A stretch of 34,975 bases of DNA, taken from a virus. Position numbers and translations under genes: made by a program. Below the pieces are notes generated by a model that worked only from the letters and a program-made list of their open reading frames with translations, was not told the origin of the DNA and made no database searches. Below are positions 1,185 through 33,905 of this stretch, in pieces. Every line of letters starts with the position of its first letter. Within the stretch, counting starts at the first letter, position 1. The DNA lies in IMG/VR virus record IMGVR_UViG_3300030294_000110, positions 1-34,975 of that record; one strand, given 5' to 3'.

Positions 1185-1199
1185 AAATTATTAATATTA

Positions 1200-1269
1200 C
1201 CCCTAACCCCTAAAGGGGAATAAGAGATGTTAGTATTGTTTCTTAACTCCCCTTTAGGGGTTGGGGGTT
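1200..1269. repeat. Inverted pair of the CCCCTTTAGGGG repeat
   Basis: Two copies of the interspersed repeat in opposite orientation (about 1200-1226 and 1245-1269) are separated by about 20 bases. In the leftward transcript they can fold into a long GC-rich hairpin between the 278-aa and 158-aa genes. The right copy supplies the last codons (Pro-Asn-Pro) and stop of the 278-aa gene. Confidence 0.85.
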
Positions 1270-2090
1270 TGCATTTTCTTCATTTCCTTTGCTTCCCTGA
1301 CTTTTGCATTCATTTCTTCCAGTGCATCCCAGGTGTTTGATTTCAGTACCTGGTCCCGTTTGGTGATATCACCTTCAGTGAGCAATCGTACCTGATTCTG
1401 AATAATGGCATACATATCCGGTGCGGTCGGTTCTTCGTCGTCAATACCGGATTCTGTTCGTTCAAACAAATCAGGCCATTGGTGCGAAAAATACTCCTTC
1501 ACTCCCATCATCCACATGATCGTGATCAGTTTCTTGAGTTCCGAAGTTAGCTGGGTGAAAAATCTTCCCCTTTTTTCGGTAAAAGTATTGTCATATTTTT
1601 TACCGGTTTGGTAAAGTGTAGCAATTAGTTTCCCCAGATGAAGTTCATCTTGAGTGAACAGATACGCCTGGTAATAATTCTCCGCTTCCAGGTACTGGCT
1701 AAAAATAGTATCACGTAACAGTTCGTCACAGGCACGATAAGTCAGTATTTTTTGAACCGGACGAATACCGGAATAATGTTTTGTCACGAAATCCATTTTC
1801 TTACTGAAGTATGCCACTTCCTCAATGGTCAGTGAGAAAAATCCTTTCCATTTCTTCTTTACAAAAAAATAAGTATTCCCTACCTGCATAAGTGGTTTAA
1901 TTCCCGTGAACCTGATCAGGCATTTTGTCCATATTGTTTCCTCCGGTTGTCCTGACCGTTGCAAACGTGCCACATATCGAATTTGTTTGTCAGACATTTC
2001 ACTGTAATTTCGTGGAGCGGTTAAGTTAAGAGTACCCCTAACCCCTAAAGGGTGATAAGAGTTGGTTCTGAATTTTTTAAATAATCTCAT
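1254..2090 (-). CDS. Conserved phage structural-region protein, repeat-interrupted at both ends
   Basis: A 278-residue protein of unknown function. It is mostly helical, with an LNLTAPRNYSEMSDKQIRY opening after about residue 20, as in uncharacterised proteins between portal and tail genes of Bacteroidota phages. A tail-assembly role is possible but unproved. Residues about 11-20 (SYHPLGVRGT) are encoded by a copy of the interspersed repeat, and the last residues NP plus stop come from another copy. Start at 2090 is the only ATG giving the full frame; the ATG beginning MSDKQIRY, about 31 codons in, is an alternative that would avoid the repeat-encoded peptide. Confidence 0.6.
   Translation of the reverse strand: MRLFKKFRTNSYHPLGVRGTLNLTAPRNYSEMSDKQIRYVARLQRSGQPEETIWTKCLIRFTGIKPLMQVGNTYFFVKKKWKGFFSLTIEEVAYFSKKMDFVTKHYSGIRPVQKILTYRACDELLRDTIFSQYLEAENYYQAYLFTQDELHLGKLIATLYQTGKKYDNTFTEKRGRFFTQLTSELKKLITIMWMMGVKEYFSHQWPDLFERTESGIDDEEPTAPDMYAIIQNQVRLLTEGDITKRDQVLKSNTWDALEEMNAKVREAKEMKKMQTPNP
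2034..2060 (-). repeat. Interspersed CCCCTTTAGGGG repeat inside a coding sequence
   Basis: A slightly degenerate copy reading, on the minus strand, TATCACCCTTTAGGGGTTAG. It lies within the first 20 codons of the 278-aa gene and is inverted relative to the copy at 2114-2141. Confidence 0.85.
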
Positions 2091-2113
2091 AATACATTAG
2101 TTAAGTTGTTTTT

Positions 2114-2141
2114 CTTCCTCCCCTTTAGGGGTCGGGGGTTT
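2114..2141 (+). repeat. Interspersed CCCCTTTAGGGG repeat
   Basis: Copy with CCCCTTTAGGGGTCGGGGG, immediately after the stop codon of the 283-aa gene (2142). With the inverted copy at 2034-2060 it brackets the start codon at 2090. Confidence 0.85.
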
Positions 2142-2993
2142 CTACATTCCAAAAAAGTACACCGGATCACTCGCCTTATTCACATATTTTGGCGATATCT
2201 TCAACGCATATTCTTCACTTCCGGCATATGTGGGGTAATCGCTCAATTCCTTTTCAAACATATACGCCAGGTTATTGAAAAGTTTATCCGCTTCGTCCGT
2301 GTTTTTATCATACATATTAACCAGTATAAGTTTGCATATTTCCACGATAAACGTATTCGGCACAGTCAGTTCATTGTTCCTGTTCTGTTCTATCAGTTCA
2401 TTCAGATAAGCCAAACTCACTACCTTGGCCAGTTCATTTTTTTGAAATGTCATTAAACTTCCTTTCGCACCGAGAAAATCCGCACGGCTACCTCTTACAT
2501 CCCCTTTAGGGGCTTGGGGTGTATAATCCGCAAAGTCAATACCCGTCAGGAATAAGCAATTTGTCAGGTTATTGAACTTCTTGAATTTCTTCCATTCGGC
2601 AAGTGCAGCTGAGTCATCCATGATCTGCATGATCAACAAATCGGTTGATTTATCAATGTACTTGTCACACCACAATATCAATCGCTCTACCCGTTCCTTG
2701 CTTGCCGGCAACTGATTGCTGTTATTGACTACCGCAAAACCATTGTTTGTCTGAATCAGGTCAACAAACGGAATAGCATCACGGTATAACTGAAAGGCTA
2801 TCAGGTTACGTAATGTTTTTCGTAATGTAGCCGATTCTTCCAATGCTTCGATATAATCGTACAGGTCCGATCCGGTAAGCAATGTCTGTATAGTTGCATC
2901 CGCTGAATTAGCGAACGGTTCGAGTGCCTTCCAATCCGTACCTTCAGCCGTTGGGATAGAGAGCAAAAAATCTTCAAGTGATGTAATGATCAT
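2142..2993 (-). CDS. DUF6712-like head-tail connector protein
   Basis: A 283-residue, largely helical protein. The segment TLRKTLRNLIAFQLYRDAIPFVDLIQTNNGFAVV (given here as the region at about 56-90) followed by NNSNQLPASKERVERL matches my memory of the DUF6712 family found next to portals in Bacteroidota phages; a connector or head-completion role is inferred. It begins two bases after the portal-like gene ends. Residues about 157-166 (YTPQAPKGDV) are encoded by an in-frame interspersed repeat, so the family region carries an insertion. The end (YFFGM) is followed at once by another repeat copy. Confidence 0.55.
   Translation of the reverse strand: MIITSLEDFLLSIPTAEGTDWKALEPFANSADATIQTLLTGSDLYDYIEALEESATLRKTLRNLIAFQLYRDAIPFVDLIQTNNGFAVVNNSNQLPASKERVERLILWCDKYIDKSTDLLIMQIMDDSAALAEWKKFKKFNNLTNCLFLTGIDFADYTPQAPKGDVRGSRADFLGAKGSLMTFQKNELAKVVSLAYLNELIEQNRNNELTVPNTFIVEICKLILVNMYDKNTDEADKLFNNLAYMFEKELSDYPTYAGSEEYALKISPKYVNKASDPVYFFGM
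2493..2521 (+). repeat. Interspersed CCCCTTTAGGGG repeat, in-frame within CDS
   Basis: CCCCTTTAGGGGCTTGGGG inside the 283-aa gene. The reading frame is kept, so the repeat is translated as a Pro/Gly-rich loop (TPQAPKGDV). Confidence 0.9.
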
Positions 2994-2995
2994 GA

Positions 2996-4366
2996 TTATT
3001 TAGTTTTAGCTGGTTGAGTATCCTGATTCTGATTCTGATCAGATGACTGAGCATCCGTTTTTTTGTCGAGCGTGGTAAGCATCATAAACGGAATATCAAA
3101 CTCGATATCCCAGTTATTATAGTGCTTAATGACAAAATAAGGTTCCAGAAGAATATCTTTAGGACCTTTCTCCAACCCTTGTTTCATGGTAAATAGCTCA
3201 CGAATATTGCTTCCGTTCATATTGCTTGAGCTTTTTCCTGGAGTTGCACCAATCATACTTGGATGATTCCCCTGAGCATAGCAAGCCATCGAAGCTCCTT
3301 CTTCCACATCTTCTATCCAGTCGCCACCTTCCTTGGTATTATTGATGACTGTTATTCGAACCATTGATTGCTCTTTTCCGTTTGGGTCAATATAGAATCC
3401 GGAAAACCATACCTTACCGGCATTCACCATTCCTGTTAGGAACGACTTAATATTTTCCTTTTCCAACGTGATCCGCTCAACTTTTTTTACCGGATCAGTT
3501 ATATTTTCCCTACTAAGAAGAATATCCCAGTATTTATCATTTATTTCTACCTGGTATTTAATAACCAATCCGTTTGTAAATTTGGCCTTTTTACCTGCAG
3601 GGATTAATGCCTTGATATCATACCATCCTGAATTGAATATGGCCCAGTAATAAGGGAACGGGTAATATTTGTTTCCGGGGATGGGGATCCGGTTCACCAT
3701 CGCAAATTTGCGGGTCTTTGTTGGAGTTCTGTTTTTCCCTGTATCGTCCGGAAGTTTTCCCATGCGAACCATTAAGTCTCCCAGCGGATCATCAACGTCT
3801 AATAATTCAATTTCTTCACGTACATCTTTTTTAGGTGCACCTTTCTCCCAGTTTCCATAATACACATGTTCCAGGGTACCGGTTTTAGGGTTACAGGTTT
3901 CGAGTCGGCAATACAATGCCTCCTTATGTCGGAGCTTTACAATTTTAGTACCGTCCATACTCAGGATAAGTACACTAACGGAAAAGAAAAAATGTTTCAT
4001 ATCCGTTTGTTGTTCTAACAGGTATTTTGCAGGTCTGTTGTATTTAAAAAAATCAACAATTCCCTGATCAGTCACCTCCGTTTTATCTTTTTTCGTATAC
4101 GTTAACCCATTACTATATGATGCTAAAATATTAAAAAAAACATTAGAACTCATAACCTCATCATTCCGCATAAGCCTTAAAACTTCATTAGGTCGTAAGT
4201 TATCATCACCCCATGGAACATACCCGCGCAACGTACCTGCCTCCGGAAGCGTTAGTGGAACTATATCATCTGTATCAAAAACGGTCGTTCCTTCGTTCAT
4301 TTTCTCAATGGCCTTCCGTGCGTTTTCTCCAATCGGAATTTCAAATACGTTGACTTCTCTCTTCAT
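2996..4366 (-). CDS. Portal-like protein
   Basis: A 456-residue protein. The N-terminal GYVPWGDDNLRPNEVLRLMR (about 48-67), followed by a helical segment NDEVMSSNVFFNILASYSNG, is the arrangement seen in portal-type proteins of Bacteroidota phages, as are size and position next to head-tail connector genes. The middle is rich in beta segments and the tail is a low-complexity Gln/Asp/Lys stretch (about 436-456). Portals form the dodecameric ring through which terminase pumps DNA. The terminase lies about 6 kb upstream rather than adjacent, which is unusual for this module. I cannot exclude another large head protein, but no better portal candidate exists in the window. Confidence 0.6.
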   Translation of the reverse strand: MKREVNVFEIPIGENARKAIEKMNEGTTVFDTDDIVPLTLPEAGTLRGYVPWGDDNLRPNEVLRLMRNDEVMSSNVFFNILASYSNGLTYTKKDKTEVTDQGIVDFFKYNRPAKYLLEQQTDMKHFFFSVSVLILSMDGTKIVKLRHKEALYCRLETCNPKTGTLEHVYYGNWEKGAPKKDVREEIELLDVDDPLGDLMVRMGKLPDDTGKNRTPTKTRKFAMVNRIPIPGNKYYPFPYYWAIFNSGWYDIKALIPAGKKAKFTNGLVIKYQVEINDKYWDILLSRENITDPVKKVERITLEKENIKSFLTGMVNAGKVWFSGFYIDPNGKEQSMVRITVINNTKEGGDWIEDVEEGASMACYAQGNHPSMIGATPGKSSSNMNGSNIRELFTMKQGLEKGPKDILLEPYFVIKHYNNWDIEFDIPFMMLTTLDKKTDAQSSDQNQNQDTQPAKTK

Positions 4367-4397
4367 AATAATAAATTGTAAATAGCTAAATAGTAAA

Positions 4398-4625
4398 TTA
4401 TATACAGATTTCTTCGTCGTTTACTTCAAAAATACTTATCACTCTCACCGTTCGGACTTCACGGCTTTCTACAAAAATCAGGTTTGCCGTATTCCGTTTA
4501 AAATTGGAGGAAGTACACACCACGTTGTTATAAGTCAATATTTCACCCGTGGTGCCCTTCCATACCCTGCAATTAAAGGGTTTCCCCTCTCTCAATATTT
4601 TCCTGACTACACTTATATGTATCAT
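4398..4625 (-). CDS. Small conserved phage protein, unknown function
   Basis: A 75-residue protein, probably beta-rich (CRVWKGTTGEILTYNNVVCTSSNF, about 19-42, then a REVRTVRVISIFEVNDEE end). This pattern of a GEI turn, CTSSN and an R-V-R-x-I-x-x-IFE-x-N end recurs in small proteins next to tail genes of Bacteroidota phages. It sits between the 375-aa structural protein and the portal-like gene, in the same direction. A structural or connector role is inferred from neighbours only. Confidence 0.5.
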   Translation of the reverse strand: MIHISVVRKILREGKPFNCRVWKGTTGEILTYNNVVCTSSNFKRNTANLIFVESREVRTVRVISIFEVNDEEICI

Positions 4626-4640
4626 ATTTTCTTTCTTTTC

Positions 4641-4671
4641 TTATATTCCTACCCTTTAGGGGTCGGGGGTA
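4641..4671 (+). repeat. Interspersed CCCCTTTAGGGG repeat
   Basis: Copy with ACCCTTTAGGGGTCGGGGG in the gap between the 375-aa gene (stop at 4675) and the 75-aa gene. Confidence 0.85.
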
Positions 4672-4674
4672 GTC

Positions 4675-5802
4675 TTAATTAAAAGTTTTATCAAACGTCC
4701 TGTCAAATATCCCTTTAGCAGCATTCGCAAACACCAGGTTATTATTCTTTGCCCGGCGATATCCAAACGAGAATGCCTGAAGCTCGTTGGACGTGATATC
4801 CGTTTTGTCCACACCTACCAGCGTTATTTCCTCACTCATTCCGTCCGTTGGCGTATAAAGTCCAACCGTGTAACTCGTTATCAGGTCATCAATCCATTCC
4901 ATCTCCACATCGCTCAGGTACCCGCTATTCATAGTTTTTTCACTTACAAAGTCCTGTGTAATCTTCCGGTAATGGTTATCAATATTGCCCAGGTTATATT
5001 CATTCGTTTTTTTGTTGATCATCTTACCGGTGGCAGTAAATGTTTCCATTACGCCAAAGCTGTTGATATAAACAAAGGAAGTATGATCACGGTAAAGGGT
5101 ATTGTCAACCAGGTAGGTGTAATGGTTTGTCTCAAGTCCGATACCTGCAATCCAGATATCATACTGAAGTACTATTGTATCGAGTGGTAAGCCGGCAGAT
5201 GTGAGTATCCTACCGATAGAAGTATTGAATGTTACAATTTGCCGGGCAGTTGAAATAGGTAATACGTCAAGACCGGTACTAAATTCTGTCATTACACCGG
5301 CTTTCAGATATACAAGTTTATATCGAATCACAAGTTCATCATAGGTGTCCAGTTTGTAAAACGATAGGTATTCGTTTCTGCCTTTGGCTGTAATTTTTTC
5401 GCGATAAGCACGTGTCAGAAAGTTTACTTTTGTCCATGGAGCCGCATCAACAATCATATCAGCCTCACATTTCAGAGCTATAAATGAATTTTCAAGCTTT
5501 ACAGTTCCTTCGGTAATGGCATACAAGAATAAACAATTAGCCAGTCCCGGAGTATGAACTGACGTTATATTCATTGGCATAACAGGATTTGAGACTAAAT
5601 ACTTTGAAACAATGTCACCCAGGTTCCTTATCCTGATCAGTCCATCCACATCGTATACATACTTTTCACTCAATATAAGCTCAGAACCCCTCCTGAATTC
5701 AAAAGTTACCGATTCATTCGCATCCGTTTTCTGAATGAGTATGTCCGGGATGTTGTTCTGAAAATAGGTGCCCGATGCCGTAGGTTCTTGCGTAATAGTC
5801 AT
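4675..5802 (-). CDS. Phage structural (tail/appendage-like) protein
   Basis: A 375-residue protein made of repeated beta-rich segments, without signal peptide or membrane segment. The stretch LYRDHTSFVYINSFGVMETF (about 236-255) is a pattern I recall from uncharacterised tail-region proteins of Bacteroidota phages. It is the first gene behind the phage promoter at 5832-5868 with a leader of about 25 bases, and it heads the 75-aa, portal-like, connector and tail-completion genes, so it belongs to the late virion operon. Which part of the virion it occupies cannot be read from sequence. Confidence 0.5.
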   Translation of the reverse strand: MTITQEPTASGTYFQNNIPDILIQKTDANESVTFEFRRGSELILSEKYVYDVDGLIRIRNLGDIVSKYLVSNPVMPMNITSVHTPGLANCLFLYAITEGTVKLENSFIALKCEADMIVDAAPWTKVNFLTRAYREKITAKGRNEYLSFYKLDTYDELVIRYKLVYLKAGVMTEFSTGLDVLPISTARQIVTFNTSIGRILTSAGLPLDTIVLQYDIWIAGIGLETNHYTYLVDNTLYRDHTSFVYINSFGVMETFTATGKMINKKTNEYNLGNIDNHYRKITQDFVSEKTMNSGYLSDVEMEWIDDLITSYTVGLYTPTDGMSEEITLVGVDKTDITSNELQAFSFGYRRAKNNNLVFANAAKGIFDRTFDKTFN

Positions 5803-5900: not shown

Positions 5901-5930
5901 TCTTATTCCCCTTTAGGGGTTAGGGGTTCT
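5901..5930 (+). repeat. Interspersed CCCCTTTAGGGG repeat, supplies a stop codon
   Basis: Copy with CCCCTTTAGGGGTTAGGGG. Read on the minus strand it encodes the last residues Asn-Pro and the TAA of the 86-aa gene. Confidence 0.9.
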
Positions 5931-8377: not shown

Positions 8378-8411
8378 AAAAAACCCCAATACTATTAGTA
8401 GAGGGGTTTTT
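8378..8411. terminator. Bidirectional intrinsic terminator
   Basis: AAAAAACCCC (8378-8387) and GGGGTTTTT (8403-8411) form a stem with T-runs on both strands; the loop holds an inner TACT/AGTA pair. It separates the DUF6261-like gene from the 126-aa gene. Confidence 0.7.
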
Positions 8412-8448
8412 ATCATTCCCCTTTAGGGGTTAGGGGTTCTTAGGGGTT
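8411..8448 (+). repeat. Interspersed CCCCTTTAGGGG repeat, extended
   Basis: CCCCTTTAGGGGTTAGGGG followed by a further TTCTTAGGGGTT unit. Read on the minus strand it encodes the final TPKNP and the stop of the 253-aa gene. Confidence 0.9.
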
Positions 8449-22732: not shown

Positions 22733-22760
22733 TTCTTATTCCCCTTTAGGGGTTAGGGGT
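22733..22760 (+). repeat. Interspersed CCCCTTTAGGGG repeat
   Basis: Copy with CCCCTTTAGGGGTTAGGGG right after the stop of the 153-aa gene (22763). It is the only copy in the early region. Confidence 0.9.
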
Positions 22761-26810: not shown

Positions 26811-28019
26811 ATGCCACGCAAACAAACAATCATCATATTTCCACACCTGAACGATTACAAGGGTGATTTATCTAAAAAATGGTATGTCGAGTATAAATGG
26901 CGGGTACCAGGAGAAGTTGATCAGCGCAAAGAACGGATTTATCGGGGCCTGTTTGAAGGAACCAGGGCATCACGTTATAAGTTGGCTAAAGAAATAATCA
27001 AGGACAAAACAGAATGGCTGAAATCAGGCGCATACCTTCAGGGGAATGTAAAGAAGGTATATGCAGATGAACTTCTTTATCGCAATGAAGCTAAAATGTA
27101 CGGTGAAGCTCGTAAGCAGGTAGTTACTACCCGTACTAACCTGAGTGAATATTTGACGGTAATGAAAGAAAAAGTGAATGCTAAAAGTTACGAAAGTTAT
27201 GTATCGAAATTGCGAATTTTCAATGCCTGGCTAAAAGTAAACAGGTTGGACGAATTATCCATTGCTAACATAAGTCGGCAGCATATAATCGACTTTTCAG
27301 TATATCTTTCGTCCGAACAAAAACTCAGCCGGTTAACGATAAAAAAGTACATTCAAAACATTCACGGATTCTTTAACTTCGAATTGGATCGTAATGCGAT
27401 TACCGTGAATCCGGCAGAACGTATTCCTGCCATGGGAAAAATAGTCGATTGCGCAGCTGTACCATTCCAGGCTGATGACCGTACCAAACTAAAAGTAGCA
27501 ATATCAGTTGCAGATCCACAATTGTGGTTGGCATGCCAGGTGCAATATTATTGTGCCATTCGTCCGGGAACTGAATTGCGGTTAATGAAGTTAAAGTGGA
27601 TAGACTTTGAGAATTCTAAGTTCCGGATCCCAAATGTTGAAGCTAAAAATAACAAGTCTGAAATTGTGGATATACCTGATTTTCTTATTGTTGAAATGAA
27701 ATCACAGCAGCTGCACACATACACCGAAAAAAACCTGTTTGTATTCGGAAAATTCGGTCGTCCCGGAACTGAACCATTAGGTAAAAACACACTCCGGAAT
27801 AGGTTTAACCGGTACCGTGAAGCGTTGGGAATTTCTCCTGAGCATAAATTCTACAGTTGGAAACATAGCGGGGCAATTTCATTGATTAATGCAGGAGTAC
27901 AGCCGTATGATATGAAAAACCATTTAAGGCATGCCAGTTTTGCCACTACCGAAATTTATCTAAAAAAACAAAGTGGAAATGTCAAGAACAACATTTCCAC
28001 TCTAACAACCGAAATTTAA
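26811..28019 (+). CDS. int: Tyrosine-recombinase integrase
   Basis: A 402-residue protein. An N-terminal arm-binding-type region (1-105) precedes a core-binding domain (about 108-205, LSEYLTVMKEKVNAKSYESY and on). The catalytic domain has R251 (CAIRPGTELRLMKLKWID), a candidate Lys at 279-282, a FYSWKHSGAI box, H374 (NHLRHASFATT) and the nucleophile Y383 (TEIYLK). In the second box the usual H-x-x-R is Y348-x-x-K351. The start codon overlaps an inverted repeat (26737-26746 and 26803-26812), possibly for self-regulation. Its end overlaps the convergent hub-like gene by four bases. Confidence 0.9.
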   Translation: MPRKQTIIIFPHLNDYKGDLSKKWYVEYKWRVPGEVDQRKERIYRGLFEGTRASRYKLAKEIIKDKTEWLKSGAYLQGNVKKVYADELLYRNEAKMYGEARKQVVTTRTNLSEYLTVMKEKVNAKSYESYVSKLRIFNAWLKVNRLDELSIANISRQHIIDFSVYLSSEQKLSRLTIKKYIQNIHGFFNFELDRNAITVNPAERIPAMGKIVDCAAVPFQADDRTKLKVAISVADPQLWLACQVQYYCAIRPGTELRLMKLKWIDFENSKFRIPNVEAKNNKSEIVDIPDFLIVEMKSQQLHTYTEKNLFVFGKFGRPGTEPLGKNTLRNRFNRYREALGISPEHKFYSWKHSGAISLINAGVQPYDMKNHLRHASFATTEIYLKKQSGNVKNNISTLTTEI

Positions 28020-33878: not shown

Positions 33879-33905
33879 TCTTATTCCCCTTTAGGGGTTA
33901 GGGGT
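33879..33905 (+). repeat. Interspersed CCCCTTTAGGGG repeat
   Basis: Copy with CCCCTTTAGGGGTTAGGGG between terminator and promoter upstream of the tape measure gene. Confidence 0.9.

Follow-up and report, generated by a model that had tools for sequence, protein, structure and literature searches.

Two copies of a short DNA repeat lie in frame in neighbouring genes of a tailed phage. Both are best read as copies of a 27-nt, REP-like repeat of the Paludibacter clade, which spread to the phage, most likely as doublets, and persists where it is tolerated; we give this reading a probability of roughly three in four. The window, meaning the whole stretch of DNA that was analysed, is the 34,975-nt tailed-phage contig of IMG/VR record IMGVR_UViG_3300030294_000110, and its genes include those for a tape-measure protein, a portal-like protein, a Clp-type protease and an integrase. 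Three genes matter for the two sites:

2996 to 4366, minus strand: portal-like gene, 29.7% identity to the portal protein of Polaribacter phage Leef_1
2142 to 2993, minus strand: 283-aa gene with an in-frame repeat copy, Pfam DUF6712, adjoining the portal-like gene
1254 to 2090, minus strand: 278-aa gene whose N-terminus is read through the repeat, start ATG at 2090 (from sequence)

The consensus of the unit is TCTTATT-CCCC-TTTA-GGGG-TTA-GGGG-T, and conservation drops outside these 27 nt in the column frequencies around 183 host copies. Its 19-nt core, CCCCTTTAGGGGTTAGGGG, occurs 10 times in the window at up to three mismatches, five of them exact, while the maximum at that threshold in 100 first-order Markov sequences was 0. 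The 12-nt core at up to one mismatch also gives 10 matches, against a mean of 0.08 expected from 100 dinucleotide shuffles. The copies, and the doublet formed by two of them at the junction of the 283-aa and 278-aa genes, are located as follows:

1199 to 1225, minus strand: left half of the second inverted doublet; core match
1242 to 1268, plus strand: right half of the second doublet; gives the 278-aa gene its last residues, TPNP, and its stop codon
2034 to 2060, minus strand: left half of the junction doublet, at the 5' end of the 278-aa gene; encodes SYHPLGVRG
2113 to 2139, plus strand: right half of the junction doublet, directly past the stop codon of the 283-aa gene
2028 to 2145, no strand assigned: inverted doublet at the 283-aa/278-aa junction; predicted single-stranded DNA hairpin
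2494 to 2520, plus strand: copy within the 283-aa gene; the minus (gene) strand reads PQAPKGDVR in frame
4644 to 4670, plus strand: single copy past the stop codon of a 375-aa gene; core match
5901 to 5927, plus strand: single copy giving an 86-aa gene its stop codon; core match
8411 to 8437, plus strand: single copy giving a 253-aa gene its last residues and stop codon; core match
22734 to 22760, plus strand: single copy directly past the stop codon of a 153-aa gene; core match
33879 to 33905, plus strand: single copy upstream of a 1312-aa gene; core match

An earlier note on this DNA, made from the letters alone, had placed a copy at 2493-2521, in frame, within the 283-aa protein. That placement holds, and it can be refined to 2494-2520, where the protein reads Y-T-PQAPKGDVR-G-S-R. 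The protein was aligned with its homologues (18 of 29 distinct ones, leaving out two that equal aligned ones, the incomplete L128 and L186 and nine remote sequences), and the repeat was found in two of the 18, the window and the near-identical L008, and was absent from the other 16. In the window, TAT ACA is followed by the 27 nt that encode PQAPKGDVR and by GGT AGC CGT; in its nearest relatives, L017 and L020 (about 70% identity), 9 nt encoding KTD lie between TAT ACA and GGC AGC CGT. The length of the insertion, which the earlier note had wanted defined, is by this alignment a net 18 nt (6 residues) relative to L017 and L020, and a net 21 nt relative to L009, L010 and L011 (283 versus 276 residues). 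Since 27 nt stand where L017 and L020 have 9, the repeat replaced a few target bases and kept the frame, so that the word insertion is right as to frame but the event was not a clean one. The reading frame is intact in the three near-identical contigs found.

It is highly improbable that the in-frame match is a chance likeness in a fast-evolving loop. Loop length does differ among the relatives, but the core at 2494-2520 departs from the consensus at only two positions, both within the variable 3-nt second loop, and matches of that quality number 10 in the window with none expected. Besides the lack of the repeat in 16 of the 18 aligned proteins, the same residues without the DNA repeat, which the earlier note had named as evidence against its claim, were sought in those homologues and seen in 0 of 16. 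Judged from these alignments, the copy at 2494-2520 is a real in-frame insertion.

In the best AlphaFold model of the 283-aa protein (mean pLDDT 80.6; the other four models were lower, at 54 to 65), residues 156-169, among them the inserted ones, form a coil between helices 151-155 and 170-192, with a local confidence near 61. Gene order makes the description of this protein as connector-like plausible, since the adjoining gene, 2996-4366, encodes a product with 28-30% identity to annotated portal proteins, but Pfam gives only DUF6712 and a fold search found no solved structure at E values up to 0.001. In a viral structure library one uncharacterised phage protein passes E 0.001, and a "structural protein" of Cellulophaga phage phiST ranked 11th at E 0.1. 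No relatives of the 283-aa and 278-aa proteins were found in isolate phages at E values up to 0.01.

The other copy, at 2034-2060, is in frame near the N-terminus of the 278-aa protein, as had been noted, and reads N-SYHPLGVRG-T-L. It also pairs in inverted orientation with the copy at 2113-2139, a pairing absent from the earlier note. At the repeat-free junctions of L021, L022 and L009, the 283-aa gene and the one after it abut, stop codon and start touching or overlapping, and the second of the two reads M-x-T-I-(N/D)-L from its start. L020 has a single repeat copy ahead of the ATG at this junction, and the doublet is present in the window and in L017, L018 and L019, the last two of which have a further partial unit. 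The ancestral ATG of the 278-aa gene is missing in the window, and, judged from the sequence, no upstream in-frame start but the ATG at 2090 retains the conserved NLTAPRNY segment; translation must therefore cross the repeat, adding MRLFKKFRTNSYHPLGVRG. The copy at 2034-2060 would then be an N-terminal rewrite that replaces the ancestral start, and not a loop insertion. The idea that both copies are tolerated insertions in loops thus stands for the 283-aa protein, with its repeat-free homologues, kept frame and predicted coil, but not for the 278-aa protein, where the repeat lies at the gene junction and N-terminus and has displaced the ancestral start codon. Both altered proteins would presumably be expressed.

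Most other copies, in the phages and in their presumed hosts, lie between genes. In hosts, the gaps that hold a repeat are flanked by co-directional genes in 93 cases, convergent genes in 8 and divergent genes in 3, against 160, 38 and 33 for gaps without a repeat (p 5e-5; each gap counted once, with gene calls made simply from the longest frame). Among the single phage copies that lie between co-directional genes, 28 of 34 share one orientation relative to the genes (p 0.0002). Such a pattern could mean that the repeats are selected phage elements, either terminators or mRNA-stabilising 3' ends, with the intragenic copies as spill-over. The orientation of those 28 phage copies, the co-directional setting of 93 of 104 host gaps with a repeat versus 160 of 231 without, and the several copies that provide a stop codon (in the window, the preceding gene takes its stop codon from the repeat at 1242-1268, 5901-5927 and 8411-8437) all fit it. 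We nevertheless consider it quite unlikely, as the folds of three single units are no more stable than those of shuffles (z -0.28 to -1.25), no T-run follows the hairpin on the gene strand by reading of the sequence, relatives have no repeat at several of the same junctions, and host single copies between co-directional genes have no preferred orientation (11 versus 14). The site homologous to 4644-4670, for example, holds a copy in L020 and none in L009, L011 or L017.

The reading as a spreading repeat draws on the geometry of the doublets. Close pairs in a first host sample comprised 64 in the "-+" arrangement, 12 "++", 9 "--" and 0 "+-", and those in a second sample, which was drawn with a shorter pattern and shares 3 of its 60 regions with the first, comprised 47 "-+", 4 "++", 1 "--" and 1 "+-". 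With each pair counted once across both samples, there are 108 "-+" pairs, 26 same-direction pairs and 1 "+-" pair. The start-to-start spacing of the doublets ranges from 54 to 216 nt, and the spacer is AT-rich. Predicted folding is strong for the doublet at 1193-1274 (z -6.99, 0 of 200 shuffles as good) and moderate for the one at 2028-2145 (z -2.39, 2 of 200 shuffles as good). A MITE with a conserved interior was also considered and is ruled out by the spacers, which differ between doublets. The doublets at 1193-1274 of the window and at 2557-2641 of L183 occupy the same gene junction and have similar spacer sequences as well; the likeness points to shared ancestry or recombination and not to two separate events of insertion, and some copies may accordingly have been inherited or exchanged by recombination.

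The inverted doublet, two outward-facing units around an AT-rich spacer, is in our view the most likely mobile unit; in single-stranded form it would fold into a long hairpin in the fashion of a REPIN. Single copies would be partial or decayed doublets. Copies would settle chiefly between co-directional genes, where some would give a stop codon or take over a start codon, and intragenic copies would last only when they are in frame within a tolerant stretch. The 283-aa protein of the window would have tolerated one copy in a loop, and a doublet would have rewritten the start of the 278-aa protein. Movement is ascribed to a postulated host enzyme, which may be of the Y1 family or another. The empty sites have flanks about 66-96% identical to the filled ones. 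Neither the matches listed nor the eight places aligned included two near-identical sequences that differ by the presence of one copy, and those eight places have no clear target-site duplication.

The repeat belongs to the host clade, that is, to Paludibacter and other Bacteroidales. An exact 26-mer of it was found in 66 bacterial contig stretches, 45 titled Paludibacter and 14 other Bacteroidales, with the remainder titled only Bacteroidota, Bacteroidetes or Bacteroidia (5), Pedobacter (one) and Cytophagaceae (one). All 25 genomes chosen from these stretches have copies, with 2 to 239 exact ones each. In a sample of the host family, exact copies occur in 60 of 200 genomes, and a reversed control pattern had 0 matches among the matches listed for this sample. 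The phage itself probably infects Paludibacter-like bacteria, and a homologue of the 283-aa protein, 62% identical, in a genome of that host family (G103) fits such a host range. A tyrosine-recombinase integrase gene lies at 26811-28019 on the plus strand of the window. The phage is therefore probably temperate, and host repeats could enter it during integration; transfer of the repeat would have run from host to phage.

Matches to the exact pattern are about four times denser in the window than in the densest host (8 in 35 kb versus 239 in 4.3 Mb). Other dense phage records hold 11 copies in 34 kb, 9 in 25 kb and 7 in 18 kb, in a set where 36 of 39 records were picked for holding a copy and many have only one. 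Three phage records picked for a homologous gene instead (G254 to G256) have no copies.

The unit seems, from its sequence and distribution, to work like a REPIN or a BoxC-type repeat. Like REPINs as described in PMC3116915, it has inverted doublets in excess, a less conserved spacer, a predicted hairpin and a preference for extragenic sites, and it shares with REPs and REPINs a high copy number (2-239 exact copies per genome) and a mostly extragenic placement (4 of 130 copies intragenic). It differs in spacing, which is 54-216 nt here, while 71 and 110 bp are given there as the commonest in REPINs. It also differs in that no RAYT gene was found beside the unit and in that the GTAG foot is lacking: neither a GTAG nor a CGTC tetranucleotide foot is present in the consensus of 183 host copies.

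These likenesses raise the question of whether the unit is a REP moved by a RAYT, an enzyme of the Y1 family, acting from elsewhere in the genome. Subclass 2.6, described in PMC6006769 as mostly from Bacteroidetes and with atypical flanking structures, would be an example. Apart from the REPIN-like doublets, the gene counts speak for it: Y1 genes were found in 10 of 10 repeat-bearing genomes tested, they are commoner in genomes with the repeat than in those without (47 of 60 versus 69 of 140, p 0.00015, a raw value that may reflect kinship or genome size), and they occur in 18 of 21 genomes with at least 20 copies versus 98 of 179 others (p 0.009, also raw and uncorrected for kinship and genome size). 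The loci themselves point the other way. A repeat lies within about 1.5 kb of the Y1 gene at 2 of 30 loci and then at 4 of 28 further ones, where a few are expected on a rough estimate from copy numbers; the first set covered 30 of 56 places and the second 30 loci of a longer list, with subclasses pooled, and two of those four further loci come from genomes with no or few exact copies. No fetched Y1 locus has a close flanking repeat pair, and the one with a copy on each side of the gene, L283, has them more than 1 kb off and in the same direction. Moreover, 69 genomes have Y1 genes without the repeat, three repeat-bearing genomes (G100, G115 and G021, with 79, 77 and 25 copies) have no Y1 match, though their assemblies may be incomplete, and the consensus has no GTAG or CGTC foot. 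We regard movement by a RAYT as rather unlikely.

In its layout the unit equals the BoxC/TM_ECO triplex motif of E. coli and its relatives, described in PMC4666352 as a C-block, a loop, a G-block, a 3-nt loop and a second G-block. The two share the block order, the TTA second loop (type A), the inverted pairs and a dispersed, intergenic placement. They differ in block length, 9 nt there but 4-5 nt in nearly all Bacteroidales copies, which is also less than the 6 nt required as a minimum in the published search for triplexes. Another difference is that the BoxC motif was, in that study, always intergenic in E. coli MG1655 and was not seen in phages, whereas the Bacteroidales unit occurs in phages and has some copies in frame within genes.

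A C-G-G triplex or hairpin of this kind might stall replication, and repair or template switching would then copy the unit without a dedicated enzyme. The shared layout, including the TTA loop and the inverted pairs (PMC4666352), and sites that resemble replacement of a few bases are consistent with this, as is the tendency of block lengths to agree. Of 203 motif instances, counted with a pattern that omitted second loops starting or ending with G, 173 are 4-4-4, 11 are 5-5-5 and 11 are 5-4-4. However, where the C-run is five and the G-blocks are four or five, 11 of 22 instances are 5-4-4, so the C-block agrees only in part. Descent of two subfamilies that differ in block length would produce an equal correlation, and the blocks of 4-5 nt are short of that 6-nt minimum. 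On balance, copying of this kind seems unlikely. The unit is not called a member of the REPIN or the BoxC family here, because one defining feature of each was tested and was not found.

Copies inside genes were also compared across hosts and phages. They make up 2 of 186 host copies in the 26-mer sample, 4 of 130 in the shorter-pattern sample and 13 of 165 phage copies, while 72-75% of random positions (74-75% in the host samples) fall within genes, which suggests that gene interiors are avoided or purged. A larger intragenic share in phages was at first indicated by 13 of 165 versus 2 of 186 (p 0.002), a comparison rejected as biased since the 26-mer has stops in most frames. The less biased comparison, 9 of 102 distinct phage copies versus 4 of 130 host copies (p 0.083; the nine phage cases were listed by hand and include one weak match, L133), leaves a tendency towards a greater share in phages.

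Eleven of the 13 intragenic phage copies read P-x-x-P-K-G. The copy in L194 sits in a variable linker, the two relatives of the L136 gene, at 47% identity, differ from it without a clear gap, and the homologues found for L129 are all identical. In L192, a gene for a Mu-type portal protein (2287-4839, plus strand) has two in-frame repeat copies just past the portal domain.

In a host genome (G001), a gene for an RffA/WecE-like sugar aminotransferase (L312, 2060-3307, plus strand) holds a whole doublet in frame, at residues 162-199. The best PDB match of the protein is 4piw, a TDP-4-keto-6-deoxyglucose transaminase family protein, and its two best solved homologues align on both sides of the doublet with three residues between. 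This loop is also filled in related genomes: by a similar doublet in L356, by a different one in L357, by a long-armed relative of the repeat in L361, by a decayed form of that relative in L359, or by other short stretches. It behaves like a landing site that is permissive.

Small repeats in frame within genes are already known (PMC3733652, PMC2759123, PMC10969869). The unit resembles intragenic REPs and Rickettsia palindromic elements (RPEs) as small palindromes that last in frame (PMC3733652, PMC10969869), and behaviour like that of RPEs, in frame and absent from homologues, is seen in the 283-aa phage protein and the RffA/WecE-like enzyme. RPEs differ in being about 150 bp and often intragenic, as against 27 nt and rarely so here, and the present cases, unlike intragenic REPs and the Rickettsia elements, include phage genes. 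Enterobacterial RU elements are likewise small mobile repeats with reading frames inside annotated genes, but they are elements of 103-168 bp from Enterobacteria (PMC2759123). A literature search by topic, covering mostly open papers by their titles and abstract openings, found, among the papers listed, no description of this Bacteroidales repeat family, and nothing on the phage-gene copy beside the portal gene or on the repeat-loaded aminotransferase loop. A search for the core 12-mer in either orientation gave a single paper, which concerns E. coli NarL and, going by title and abstract, has nothing to do with the repeat.

A bolder reading, which we hold only tentatively, is that these are seemingly new 27-nt, triplex-type Bacteroidales units, maybe moved by something else than a Y1 transposase, that pass as inverted doublets between host and phage and remodel proteins in frame at gene ends, at start codons and in permissive loops, with at least the RffA/WecE-like loop hit repeatedly. 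The system offers a clean, testable case of dispersed small repeats altering viral and host proteins, with filled and empty versions of one loop both present in related genomes. Doublets that have triplex-motif geometry and no flanking transposase may give a handle on what moves such units. The repeat also accounts for recurring peptide tags in proteins of the clade, PLTPKGE, SPLGVRG and terminal TPNP, which could otherwise be mistaken for conserved motifs.

Two further observations were made along the way. The long-armed relative of the repeat, CCCCTCTCC-TTTA-GGAGAGGGG, has arms nearer in length to those of E. coli BoxC, and this form, with 9-nt arms, has 7 matches in 3 of 12 genomes (G005, G013 and G017), a low copy number. 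As a second type of insert at a single site, the RffA/WecE-like loop of other genomes (L363 and L365) holds short direct repeats of the AAGAGCC or AAGAGG type.
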